DNA from: Armatimonadota bacterium | GTDB taxonomy: Bacteria; Armatimonadota; Armatimonadia; Armatimonadales; Capsulimonadaceae | Length of the DNA: 34,197 nucleotides | Assembly (NCBI GenBank): GCA_025354405.1 | Contig: JANXMY010000070.1 | Span: forward strand, 1-34,197 | Reading direction: 5' to 3' | Shown here: positions 18,887 through 23,074 of the stretch, piece by piece | Numbering within the stretch: the first letter of the stretch is position 1 | Layout: each line of letters begins with the position of its first letter | Program-made: the position numbers and the translations under genes | The notes under the pieces: generated by a model | Told to the model about the DNA's origin: nothing | Seen by the model: the letters and a program-made list of their open reading frames with translations, nothing else | Database searches by the model: none

Positions 18887-18896
18887 AAACCACTCG
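18877..18896 (+). repeat. 20-bp repeat spanning the fabF stop
   Basis: GAGCGGTTGAAAACCACTCG overlaps the fabF TGA. Its inverse copy at 33741-33760 differs at one base. Both copies lie at gene ends. Confidence 0.55.
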
Positions 18897-19010
18897 CTAG
18901 GAGAGGCGTCCTTCGGACGTCGGAAATAGGCTGCCGTAAAACAGCCTCTTGTTCTGCTGCCTTACACCCGGAGGGTGCCTTACCTAGCGAGTGACTTTCA
19001 GTCACTCGCT
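18891..19010. repeat. Hairpin cluster downstream of fabF
   Basis: The outer pair CACTCGCTAGG (18891-18901) and CCTAGCGAGTG (18983-18993) encloses smaller hairpins: GTCC/GGAC near 18907, AGGCTG/CAGCCT near 18928 and CACCC/GGGTG near 18967. The right outer arm can instead fold with the next bases as AGCGAGTGACT/AGTCACTCGCT (18986-19010; 11-bp stem, 3-nt loop). No T-run follows, so it is not a standard terminator. No ORF is visible. Confidence 0.7.
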
Positions 19011-19036: not shown

Positions 19037-19486
19037 ATGCAGCAAAATCCTGAACAGCTCCAATCCCTCGCGGACCGTATCAATACTGGCCTCGATAATC
19101 CTGAGACTTCCCGGGCCCTGGTTGTCTTCAATCAAACGGATCAGTCTCAGAGCGGCACAGCGGTCTTTCGGGCCTCCATGTCCTGGCCGCTGAATCTGCC
19201 GTTTCCGCCGGTTGCGGTCACGAATGGGGAGGGGAATCTTGTTCCCGCCTTAGTTGGCGGGATGTCCGAGGCTCCCGACCCCAAAGGCCGCGCTACCCAT
19301 GCTTTGCTTTCGCTTGCACTGCGCTTTGACGTCGCCAATATTCCGCCGTCAGGCTGGCGCACCTACTATGCGGCTTACGACGAGAACGCTTCCCCACCGC
19401 TGGAGAACGATGCGGAAAATGCCGATTTAGCTGTTGTAGAGACGACGCGCCACGGCGGTGATCTGCCGCCCACGGGAAACTTTTGA
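19037..19486 (+). CDS. Hypothetical protein, beta-sandwich-like fragment
   Basis: This 149-residue soluble protein has no signal peptide. Its order (RALVVFNQTDQSQSGTAVFR, then WPLNLPFPPVAVTNGEGNLVPA and IPPSGWRTYYAAYDE) recalls the C-terminal beta domain of GH38 alpha-mannosidases, which reads vvfNplsw...G..vp.qv...vPp.Gyrty. It would be only that domain, without any catalytic region. It may be a stand-alone domain or a relic, and function is not assignable. Codon composition resembles its neighbours, supporting real coding. It follows the hairpin cluster and has no clear Shine-Dalgarno sequence. Confidence 0.6.
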   Translation: MQQNPEQLQSLADRINTGLDNPETSRALVVFNQTDQSQSGTAVFRASMSWPLNLPFPPVAVTNGEGNLVPALVGGMSEAPDPKGRATHALLSLALRFDVANIPPSGWRTYYAAYDENASPPLENDAENADLAVVETTRHGGDLPPTGNF

Positions 19487-19513
19487 CTTTGCGGACGCGT
19501 ATTGTGCTATACT
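19483..19513 (+). promoter_or_regulatory. Extended -10 promoter ahead of the secA leader ORF
   Basis: TTGACT (19483-19488), a 19-nt spacer, and TATACT (19508-19513) preceded by TGC (extended -10). The expected start near 19520 is 1-2 nt before the next ATG (19522) and about 435 nt before secA. Confidence 0.6.
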
Positions 19514-19521
19514 AATCTCCG

Positions 19522-19857
19522 ATGCTGTTTCAGACACTGGTACAACTCAATATTCTGATCCTCGCCACGCCTGCACTGGCGGGCTGGATCGCTCTGCCAA
19601 TGGCTCAGCCGGGGGTGGTTCGGGCAGCCTGCGTCGTTCTGCAAATTCGGGCGGTGGAAACCGCTGCGCCGAAGCAGTCCCCTGCGGAGACGCTGAGCAA
19701 AACCGCCGCTACTGTCCGCCCGGTCCCACTCCTTCTGCCGCGATTCGTGCTGGCAAGCAGCGAGAGAGTGGTCGACCAAAAGGTCAACTTTCTGACCGGC
19801 CCCTCGGCGGCAATTACTGCGTTTCCCCCTTTCCCCCATGCCATTCGTGCGCCCTGA
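19522..19857 (+). CDS. Small secretory-type ORF upstream of secA, candidate Sec-monitoring leader peptide
   Basis: This 111-codon ORF opens with a hydrophobic stretch, MLFQTLVQLNILILATPALA, followed by GWIALP. This resembles a signal or anchor segment with an Ala-x-Ala end but no basic N-region. The middle is Ala/Pro/Val-rich. The C-terminus reads AFPPFPHAIRAP-stop. E. coli secM, which sits in the same place, ends in an arrest motif with GIRAGP, and other Sec-monitoring arrest peptides use Arg-Ala-Pro-Pro/Gly. The likeness of IRAP-stop is suggestive only. The ATG lies about 8 nt after a -10 box, so the mRNA is probably leaderless. A plain hypothetical gene, or non-coding leader RNA, is the alternative. 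Confidence 0.5.
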   Translation: MLFQTLVQLNILILATPALAGWIALPMAQPGVVRAACVVLQIRAVETAAPKQSPAETLSKTAATVRPVPLLLPRFVLASSERVVDQKVNFLTGPSAAITAFPPFPHAIRAP

Positions 19858-19870
19858 CAGACTCCACCCT

Positions 19871-19940
19871 GGCGTAAGCGCCGACCCTCGCCTTTCTGAA
19901 GAAGAGGGTTAAGATTCCGAGGTAATTCTGTGCGAAAGGC
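19871..19940 (+). promoter_or_regulatory. Possible attenuator-like stems before secA
   Basis: Three pairings are possible: GGCG/CGCC (19871-19882), ACCCTC/GAGGGT (19884-19909), and GCCTTTC (19890-19896) with GAAAGGC (19934-19940). The last would mask AAAGG, the only ribosome-site-like sequence before secA, 15 nt from the ATG. The second and third pairings compete geometrically. This comes from inspection by eye, without energy calculation. Confidence 0.35.
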
Positions 19941-19954
19941 AATCAATCACGACT

Positions 19955-22900
19955 ATGGATTTTCTGAGAAAACTATTTGACGGCAACGAACGCGATGTTG
20001 CCAAATACCGCAAAGTGGCGGATAAGATCAGCTCGCTCGAAGCCGAGACAAAGACACTGACGGATGAGGCCCTGCAGGCCAAAACGAACGAGTTCAAAAC
20101 CCGTGTTGCCGAGACGCTGGATGCCGAGTGCGAGCGGCGCGGCGTTACGTGGGAAGAGCTGGAGCGAGACGACAAGCGGGCGGTCAGCGATCTGGCACTA
20201 GACGGACTGCTGCCGGAAGCCTTTGCTGTGGTGCGCGAAGCCGCGTTTCGAACGCTCAAGATGCGTCCGTTCGACGTTCAAATGATCGGCGGCATGGTGC
20301 TGCATGATGGGCGCATTGCTGAGATGAAGACCGGCGAAGGTAAGACACTCACGGCGACTCTGCCCATCTATCTCAATGCATTGACCGGGCACGGCGTGCA
20401 CCTGGTGACAGTCAACGACTATCTGAGCAAAGTTGGCGCGGTCGCCATGGGACCAATCTATCACTTCCTGGGGCTTTCAGTCGGGATTATTCAGGGCCAA
20501 AGCCCCGAGACGGGCGACGTCGGTGGAACCTATATCTACGATCCCGAATACCGTCACCCTGATCCGCGCTACGACTTTGCACGCCCGGCGGAAAGCCGAC
20601 GCGAAGCCTACAACTGCGACATCACCTATGGAACCAACAATGAGTACGGCTTCGATTACCTGCGCGACAATCTGGCCGTGCCGGGGCAGGAGCTGAACCA
20701 GCCGGAGCTGACCTTTGCGATTGTCGATGAAGTCGACTCGATTTTGATCGACGAGGCCCGTACCCCTTTGATTATCTCTGGTCAGGCCGAAGCGTCATCT
20801 GACTTGTACGTGAAGATGGATCGCATCATTCGGCAGCTTAAAGACGAACGCGACTTTAAGATCGAAGAAAAGCAAAAGACGGCGGTCTTCACGGAAGACG
20901 GTCAGCGGCGTGTGGAGCTCGCGCTCGGTATCGAGAACCTGTCCGACGCCGAAAACCTCTCGCTGATGCAGCATGCCGGGGCGGCATTGAAGGCCCATGC
21001 CGTCTGGAAGCGGGACATCGACTACCTCGTGAAGAAAAACGAAGAGGGCAAGGAAGAAGTTGTCATCATCGACGAGAATACCGGGCGCTTGATGTTCGGA
21101 CGCCGCTGGTCGGACGGACTGCATCAGGCAGTCGAGGCCAAAGAAGGCGTTAAGATCGAGAACGAGAACCAGACCCTGGCGACGATCACGTTCCAGAACC
21201 TGTTCCGCCTTTATCCGAAGCTTGGCGGCATGACCGGAACCGCGAAAACTGAGGAAGACGAGTTCCGCAAGATCTACGCCCTCGATGTGGTGCAGGTGCC
21301 GACCAACAAGCCGATGATCCGGGGCGACCATCCCGATATTATCTATAAGTCGCAGGAAGCCAAGCTGCGCGGGATTGCCCGCGAAATTCTGACGCACTAC
21401 GCCCGTCAGCAGCCGGTTCTGATTGGAACCCGCAGCGTCGAGATGTCCGAGCGCGTCTCCGACCGCCTGCGCTATGACCGTTTGCAGCTGCTTGCTTTGA
21501 CGGACCTGCTGCGCGACAAGCTTGAGAATACCAAAGGCCTGGACAAGGCTAAATATGCTGAGTGGAGCACGGCACTAAATCAGCGTCTCAGCCCATACGG
21601 TATCCCGAAAGGCTCCGACATCGTCGTGCTGTCGCCGGGCAAGCTGGTGGATGCGGCGAAGCATTTTGGCCTTTCCACTAGCATGGCGGATGTGTCCAAT
21701 CGTGACGCTCTGGCGAAGCTTCTGGAGATCGCCCCGGAGAACCGGGAGCGGCTGGACGAAGCCATGTCGCACGGCATTCCGCACAATATCCTGAATGCCA
21801 AATCGCACGAAAAAGAAGCGCATATCATCGCTGAAGCGGGCCGCAAGGGCAGCGTCACTGTGGCCACGAACATGGCAGGGCGCGGCGTCGATATTCTGCT
21901 GGGCGGAAGCATGGTGAGTGATGCCGAGACGGCCAAAGAGGCCGGGGACGAGTATGAGTATCGGCGCGGCGGCAAACCGATCGTCGGCTTGACCCCCGTG
22001 GGCGAGCGTGGCAGCGCGCAGCATCAGGCCGATGCGGAGGAAGTCCGCCGCCTGGGCGGCCTGGTAATTCTCGGCAGTGAGCGGCATGAAGCACGCCGGA
22101 TCGACAACCAGCTTCGGGGCCGCGCCGGTCGCCAGGGTGATCCGGGCGCGTCCCGCTTCTTCGTCTCCTTGGAAGATGAGCTTTGGCGCCTCTTTGGAGA
22201 CAAAGCTAATTCGCCATTGCTGCAGGGCTGGGCGGAGGATCAGGCGATCGACGCCAAGATGCTGTCGGCAATGATCGCGCGGGCGCAGAAGAAGGTCGAA
22301 GCATTTTACTTCGATCAGCGCAAGTCTACGCTTGACTATGATGACGTGATGAATGTCCAGCGTGCCAACATCTACGGCGAGCGTCGGCGCATCATGGAAG
22401 GCGCGGACCTGCGCGATACGATTGTCGGGTACCTGGGGGAAACGGTCGAAGCCGATATCAGCCAGTATGCGCCTGAGAGTGTCTCGGCGGAAGAGTGGGA
22501 CCTGGAGGGCCTATACAACAGCCTGAATCAGACATTCCCGCTGGCACAGTACGCCGCTTTGGACGATATCAAGAGCAGGAAGCGGCCTGAGCTGGTTCCG
22601 TTTTTGACGGAGCTGGCCGACAAGTCCTACACGGACAAAGAGCAGCACTTTACGGAGACGCTGGGCGAGGAAAACGGGCTTCAGGAGATGCGTGATCTGG
22701 AGCGGCGTGTGACCTTGCAGTCGCTGGACCGGCACTGGATGGAGCATCTATCCAGCATGGACTATCTGAAAGAGGGCATCGGCTGGCGTGGCTACGCGGG
22801 GATCGATCCGCTGGTGCTTTACAAAAAAGAAGCCTACGATATGTTCCAGCAGATGCAGGCCTCCATTCAGGAGGAAGTGGTCCGGGTTATGTCCACGATC

Positions 22901-23074
22901 CAGATCAGCCTCGACCCTCTGGTTCAGCCCGATCCGCTGAGCGGTATTCCCGAGATGCTGCTGCAGGGTGCGGATGAAGACGGCATGGGAGAAGCCGGTC
23001 CGCTCGAAGCCGCCGCCGGCCCCGCTCGGGCTACGCGCCGACGGGTCGCCAAAGGCAAGCCGCGCGGAAAATAA
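19955..23074 (+). CDS. secA: Preprotein translocase ATPase SecA (long form)
   Basis: This 1039-residue SecA has Walker A MKTGEGKT at about 124-131, Walker B VDEVDSILIDEARTPLIIS near 257, the preprotein cross-linking region, LAGMTGT-like KLGGMTGTAKTEEDEF, NMAGRGVDILLGG and QLRGRAGRQGDPG, then the helical scaffold (RKSTLDYDDVMNVQR, SLDRHWMEHL). It drives post-translational export through SecYEG. It is longer than the usual 800-900 residues because about 100 residues (roughly 505-606, Asp/Leu/Lys-rich) interrupt helicase lobe 2 between SVEMSERVSDRLR and GIPHNILNAKSHEKEA. The C-terminus is basic (RRRVAKGKPRGK) and lacks the CxC zinc motif that binds SecB. Confidence 0.96.
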   Translation: MDFLRKLFDGNERDVAKYRKVADKISSLEAETKTLTDEALQAKTNEFKTRVAETLDAECERRGVTWEELERDDKRAVSDLALDGLLPEAFAVVREAAFRTLKMRPFDVQMIGGMVLHDGRIAEMKTGEGKTLTATLPIYLNALTGHGVHLVTVNDYLSKVGAVAMGPIYHFLGLSVGIIQGQSPETGDVGGTYIYDPEYRHPDPRYDFARPAESRREAYNCDITYGTNNEYGFDYLRDNLAVPGQELNQPELTFAIVDEVDSILIDEARTPLIISGQAEASSDLYVKMDRIIRQLKDERDFKIEEKQKTAVFTEDGQRRVELALGIENLSDAENLSLMQHAGAALKAHAVWKRDIDYLVKKNEEGKEEVVIIDENTGRLMFGRRWSDGLHQAVEAKEGVKIENENQTLATITFQNLFRLYPKLGGMTGTAKTEEDEFRKIYALDVVQVPTNKPMIRGDHPDIIYKSQEAKLRGIAREILTHYARQQPVLIGTRSVEMSERVSDRLRYDRLQLLALTDLLRDKLENTKGLDKAKYAEWSTALNQRLSPYGIPKGSDIVVLSPGKLVDAAKHFGLSTSMADVSNRDALAKLLEIAPENRERLDEAMSHGIPHNILNAKSHEKEAHIIAEAGRKGSVTVATNMAGRGVDILLGGSMVSDAETAKEAGDEYEYRRGGKPIVGLTPVGERGSAQHQADAEEVRRLGGLVILGSERHEARRIDNQLRGRAGRQGDPGASRFFVSLEDELWRLFGDKANSPLLQGWAEDQAIDAKMLSAMIARAQKKVEAFYFDQRKSTLDYDDVMNVQRANIYGERRRIMEGADLRDTIVGYLGETVEADISQYAPESVSAEEWDLEGLYNSLNQTFPLAQYAALDDIKSRKRPELVPFLTELADKSYTDKEQHFTETLGEENGLQEMRDLERRVTLQSLDRHWMEHLSSMDYLKEGIGWRGYAGIDPLVLYKKEAYDMFQQMQASIQEEVVRVMSTIQISLDPLVQPDPLSGIPEMLLQGADEDGMGEAGPLEAAAGPARATRRRVAKGKPRGK

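Follow-up and report, generated by a model that had tools for sequence, protein, structure and literature searches.

A conserved RAP-stop leader peptide upstream of secA in Capsulimonas-type Armatimonadota, probably a stop-codon variant of the RAPP arrest peptides

The window, by which we mean the whole 34,197-nucleotide stretch of Armatimonadota DNA analysed, belongs to a genome of 3.6 Mb and carries on its forward strand a secA gene (19955-23074) of 1039 amino acids, recognised by the Pfam domains SecA_DEAD (1.5e-118), SecA_PP_bind and SecA_SW and by its place in a SecA tree. Directly upstream on the same strand lies an open reading frame (ORF) of 111 codons plus TGA (19522-19857), the full product of which is MLFQTLVQLNILILATPALAGWIALPMAQPGVVRAACVVLQIRAVETAAPKQSPAETLSKTAATVRPVPLLLPRFVLASSERVVDQKVNFLTGPSAAITAFPPFPHAIRAP; its 3' terminus encodes ...AITAFPPFPHAIRAP and then the stop, and 97 nt separate this stop from the secA ATG. 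The leader matched no Pfam family. The criteria of Fujiwara 2024 (PMC10987492) include a small ORF of unassigned function directly 5' of a sec or yidC gene, and a small ORF directly 5' of secA is found in all seven genomes of the family to which the window belongs. An earlier note on this DNA had described a 111-codon ORF between a promoter and secA, with a hydrophobic, export-like start and the C-terminus FPPFPHAIRAP-stop (read at 19822-19857, forward strand), and each of these elements is indeed present.

The promoter-like sequence (19483-19513, forward strand), read by eye, consists of TTGACT (19483-19488) and a TG-extended -10 box, TATACT (19508-19513), and the same pairing of TTGACT with TGnTATACT is present 6-8 nt 5' of the leader ATG in G000, G001, G002 and G006. 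A consensus promoter scan of the region with spacers of 16-18 nt gave no match, because the spacing in the window is 19 nt (18 nt in G002 and G006). The -10 box ends 8 nt before the ATG in the window and in G001, and 6 nt before it in G002 and G006, and an in-frame TAA sits 9 nt 5' of the ATG, so that no earlier start is available and the leader mRNA is probably leaderless. Two leaders of another Armatimonadota family, f4 (L021, L023), have a GTG start likewise 6-8 nt after a -10-like box (compare window 19508-19524), which suggests leaderless initiation of the putative arrest peptides in both families. Further upstream, strong terminator-like stem-loops (18890-19010; AGCGAGTGACTTTCAGTCACTCGCT and others) follow a fabF-like gene and separate it from the leader and from an intervening ORF of 149 aa (19037-19486), whose function is unassigned; this ORF is kept in G001, G002 and G006 with 44-68% identity, and was not found at the same place in the other genomes of the family or in its sister family.

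The product begins with a hydrophobic segment, MLFQTLVQLNILILATPALAGWIALPM (19522-19602, forward strand), with a Kyte-Doolittle 15-residue maximum of 2.15 at residue 11 and a possible ALA cleavage site. All seven leaders of the family behave alike, with maxima of 2.0-2.3 starting at residues 11-16, and so by hydropathy they have the N-terminal secretion signal or transmembrane segment that Fujiwara 2024 looks for, with the positive N-region missing: none of the seven has a K or R ahead of this segment, whereas a signal peptide usually begins with positive charge. We speculate that such an uncharged, weak signal could make a sensor respond early to SecA shortage. From the hydrophobic segment to the C-terminus there are 72-86 residues in the seven leaders, beyond the more than 30 specified by Fujiwara 2024; published distances between signal and arrest site include 71 for the short class of SecM and 54 for MifM (PMC10987492), and the distance seen here fits Sec-monitoring rather than YidC-monitoring peptides.

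SecA searches across 61 and 291 Armatimonadota genomes yielded seven genomes, mostly metagenome-assembled and representing five genera, of a Capsulimonas-type family (NCBI places Capsulimonas in the Capsulimonadales, Armatimonadota). The earlier note had proposed that absence of the ORF or its C-terminus from relatives would speak against an arrest peptide; instead, every one of the seven has an ORF of 101-111 aa directly 5' of secA that ends exactly in RAP-stop (HAIRAP, YAIRAP, HAARAP, QAARAP, HAARAP, HACRAP and ASTRAP). The arginine is encoded by CGT, CGC or AGG, the alanine by GCG, GCC or GCT and the proline by CCC, CCT or CCG, while the stop is TGA in two genomes, TAG in four and TAA in one. 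Since all four codons vary, the target of selection is the encoded peptide together with its stop, and not the DNA. The ending is also rare: a census of all the sequence retrieved, which took in 4,619 distinct ORFs of 60 or more aa, gave eight that end in RAP-stop, and seven of these are the secA leaders of this family. The genes upstream vary among genomes, and the leader stays linked to secA; in the genome of the window, no RAP or RAPP leader was found at secDF (contig C102) or at yidC (within the window).

The one further family that represents this order in the collection of genomes (f2) has a leader at the same position that ends in RAPP followed by one to five residues. Nine genomes have tails of one to four residues (RAPPV, RAPPFA, RAPPRG, RAPPATR, RAPPHAA and RAPPVSRS), and in a tenth, G014, where the frames of both leader and secA are broken, the ending reads RAPPFVPFA; this count takes in every genome of the family with a readable secA region, plus G014. 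In the SecA tree the RAP-stop family (SH-aLRT 98) and the RAPP family (100) are sister clades (94), and in several genomes of the latter the next gene upstream runs the opposite way. Both f4 leaders are also of the RAPP kind, and no such leader was found in f24, f9 and f5, the families nearest to the two sisters in the tree. The earlier note had regarded the locus as an independently evolved case; because the sister family carries RAPP at the same place, the RAP-stop leader looks instead like a variant of that type with a stop codon, and is probably not an independent invention.

We consider it likely that the leader monitors Sec export as an arrest peptide, a stop codon having taken the place of the A-site proline of RAPP and causing arrest at termination. 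In our model, the stalling, export-release and RNA steps of which we infer, the ribosome would translate the (probably leaderless) leader while its hydrophobic segment engages the Sec pathway. With R-A-P at the end of the chain and a stop codon in the A site, hydrolysis of the peptidyl-tRNA would be slow, and the ribosome would stall at termination some 72-86 residues past the export segment. Where export is efficient, pull on the nascent chain would free the ribosome; where SecA is limiting, the stall would persist over the end of the leader, expose the start region of secA and raise SecA synthesis. In the published structures of RAPP peptides the P-site tRNA carries R-A-P, and the alanine carbonyl holds the single N-H of the A-site proline (PMC10951233); in ApdA and ApdP, arrest in vivo was impaired whichever residue was put in place of that proline (PMC7897499). 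Given both of these requirements, RAP-stop must work somewhat differently. Our further suggestion, held with less assurance though we lean towards it, is that within one order the RAPP core was switched from elongation to termination arrest by the change from proline to stop, and that the identity of the stop (UGA, UAG or UAA) is irrelevant.

The stop codon follows RAP at once in all seven genomes, while the RAPP tails of the sister family vary in length, and for this reason the stop is most simply taken as part of the arrest signal; Pro-stop stalling would fit both this fixed position and, by analogy, the published NSP-stop and NAP-stop precedents. Arrest could alternatively occur one codon earlier, RA occupying the P site and proline the A site while the stop is incidental, as RAPP peptides do stall with an A-site proline (PMC10951233), the RAG/P of SecM is of the same kind (PMC10951233) and the leader ends are also readable as (I/A/C/T)RA/P. 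An incidental stop should drift, however, as the one to five residues after RAPP have done. Nor is any characterised peptide known to us to have RA at the P site when it stalls, which also counts against this alternative, and we think it unlikely.

The pattern of selection along the leader bears on what the ORF is for. The leaders of G000 and G001 differ by 45 synonymous and 41 nonsynonymous changes (dS 0.81, dN 0.195, dN/dS 0.24), distributed as one nonsynonymous against 19 synonymous changes in the first 45 codons, 36 against 23 in the middle and 4 against 3 in the last 14, giving nonsynonymous proportions of 0.01, 0.32 and 0.13; changes by codon position 1/2/3 number 26/15/45. A second close pair, G002 and G006, gives a dN/dS of 0.23 and proportions of 0.09, 0.21 and 0.03 for the same segments. 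The last codons are thus conserved above the middle in both pairs, the comparison that the earlier note had proposed as a check, and together with the invariant RAP-stop this is the C-terminal conservation that Fujiwara 2024 also looks for. Conserved ends around a drifting middle are what would be expected of a peptide composed of a targeting signal and an arrest sequence. Purifying selection and a hydrophobic N-terminus would also be expected if the ORF encoded a small membrane or exported protein, transcribed together with secA, whose function is unrelated to arrest. Against this, the middle is nearly unconserved in the alignment while the last residues and the stop are kept, the C-terminal RAP core is all that these leaders have in common with those of the RAPP family, and the leader matches no Pfam family; we judge this explanation improbable, and more so than arrest one codon earlier. 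That the ORF is a chance product of a long untranslated region, in which another frame is open for 139 codons, can be dismissed given its conservation in all seven genomes, the dN/dS of 0.24, the codon-position bias and the enrichment of RAP-stop.

The nearest characterised analogues are the RAPP peptides ApdA and ApdP and the RQH family (Sakiyama 2021, PMC7897499; Fujiwara 2024, PMC10987492; structures in PMC10951233), which are likewise leaders of sec genes with an N-terminal targeting segment and a C-terminal R-A-P. ApdA and ApdP accept only proline in the A site, where all seven leaders have a stop codon; with R-A-P for the P site present and the A-site proline lacking, we class the leader as a variant and not within the RAPP type proper. 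ApcA (RAPG), unlike ApdA and ApdP, tolerates several A-site residues (PMC7897499) and has the R-A-P core in common with our leaders, but it precedes yidC genes. In the available text of Fujiwara 2024 (PMC10987492), RAP-stop appears as a variant clustered with ApcA and as a RAPP-like query motif, to which the leaders conform, and that text was not found to describe a test of the clustered variants; the present leaders differ from that cluster in that RAP-stop is fixed across a family, 5' of secA and in Armatimonadota.

Arrest at NSP-stop and NAP-stop has been demonstrated in Bacteroidota, according to Fujiwara 2024 (PMC10987492), and these peptides also have a C-terminal proline directly before the stop; one of them, uA_NSP-stop, is also located 5' of secA. 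Their toeprints, as presented there, show the A site occupied by the stop codon. They differ in ending with N-S-P or N-A-P instead of R-A-P and in belonging to a different phylum, and the text available reports no RAPP sister group for them. The arrest-critical K, N and P of uA_NSP-stop, at -5, -3 and -1 counted back from the stop, are not matched by the leaders, the terminal Pro-stop alone being common. E. coli SecM resembles the leader in lying upstream of secA and in having an export signal and a C-terminal arrest sequence with RA.P, but it arrests in elongation; membership of the E. coli SecM type was rejected since FxxxxWIxxxxGIRAGP is absent from the leader. Finally, CliM of Clostridioides difficile arrests at termination while a homologue does so in elongation (PMC13183943), which is the contrast we propose between the two sister families, although CliM lies 5' of yidC and shows a KYxIW motif and helical compaction (PMC13183943).

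Other secA leaders occur within the phylum. The known uA_RQH_Fimbriimonadales is, like ours, a secA leader in Armatimonadota, but it has RDGP or RAGP followed by further residues and belongs to a different lineage in the SecA tree. Consistent with it are the leaders of f14 (L029, L158-L167), in which R(D/A)GP lies near the C-terminus in 11 of 11 sampled genomes; this family is probably the Fimbriimonadaceae, a name suggested by the motif. In f16 (L145, L146, L150) the leader ORFs encode 115-120 aa with a conserved N-terminal QxEWxRRQxQR, a hydrophobic segment and the ending (F/W)L(S/A)RFxRPPxx-stop, of which RPP is a candidate arrest motif, absent from the motifs named in the literature as available. 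The secA leaders of f6 (L142, L143, L147) have a hydrophobic N-terminus and a conserved C-terminal LSGxxTNxxL(N/E)-stop, the rest being variable, and are candidates for another arrest peptide, one that has no terminal proline.

Our search of the literature on Armatimonadota arrest peptides returned nothing relevant, and none of the literature searched was found to describe a secA leader family in this phylum that is fixed for RAP-stop and has a sister with RAPP; individual sequences may possibly be listed in the supplementary tables of Fujiwara 2024. What was already known, from the available text of that paper, is the RAP-stop motif and arrest at NSP-stop and NAP-stop, and what appears to be new is the family-wide RAP-stop secA leader next to its RAPP sister. 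The poorly studied Armatimonadota are thereby added as a phylum with secA leaders of several C-terminal kinds. Structural studies at present ascribe RAPP arrest to the secondary amine that only proline can bring to the A site, and the two families form a natural pair in which the role of the R-A-P core by itself can be examined. The pair also bears on how peptides of this kind pass between arrest in elongation and arrest at termination. If the switch suggested above is true, the geometry of the R-A-P chain would suffice to obstruct the peptidyl transferase centre, towards release factors no less than towards prolyl-tRNA.

In our model a stalled ribosome would act on secA through the spacer (19858-19954, forward strand), for which pairing is predicted in the free state. 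The likely ribosome-binding site of secA, AAAGG (19935-19939, forward strand), stands 15 nt from the ATG, further than usual and further than in the relatives (7-9 nt), and GAAAGG or CAAAGG precedes secA in five of the seven genomes. In free RNA, folding predicts that GCGAAAGGCA ahead of secA pairs with the leader codons for A-I-R. With a ribosome modelled as stalled at the stop and masking the RNA there, the unpaired fraction of the site, whose exact value varies with where the folded segment begins and ends, rises from 0.25-0.38 to 0.67-0.78. The unpaired probability increased in five of the seven genomes when both states were modelled, namely in the window, G001, G002, G006 and, weakly, G004, with little change in G003 and none in G005. 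Compared with 100 dinucleotide shuffles of the 5' segment, natural pairing was not stronger at the 5% level in any genome, shuffled segments pairing equally or more strongly in 8-49% of cases (fractions 0.08-0.49). Because shuffles match the predicted pairing, the masking of AAAGG by stems that the earlier note had proposed is suggestive only, and a secA ribosome site hidden in RNA structure is a plausible element of the model. The spacer of G001 (L003, 1334-1450) is some 90 nt longer and contains two palindromic copies of ACCCTCTCCTT...AAGGAGAGGGT, the counterpart of which in the window is a degenerate ACCCTC...GAGGGT hairpin (19883-19911); these look like small mobile palindromes.
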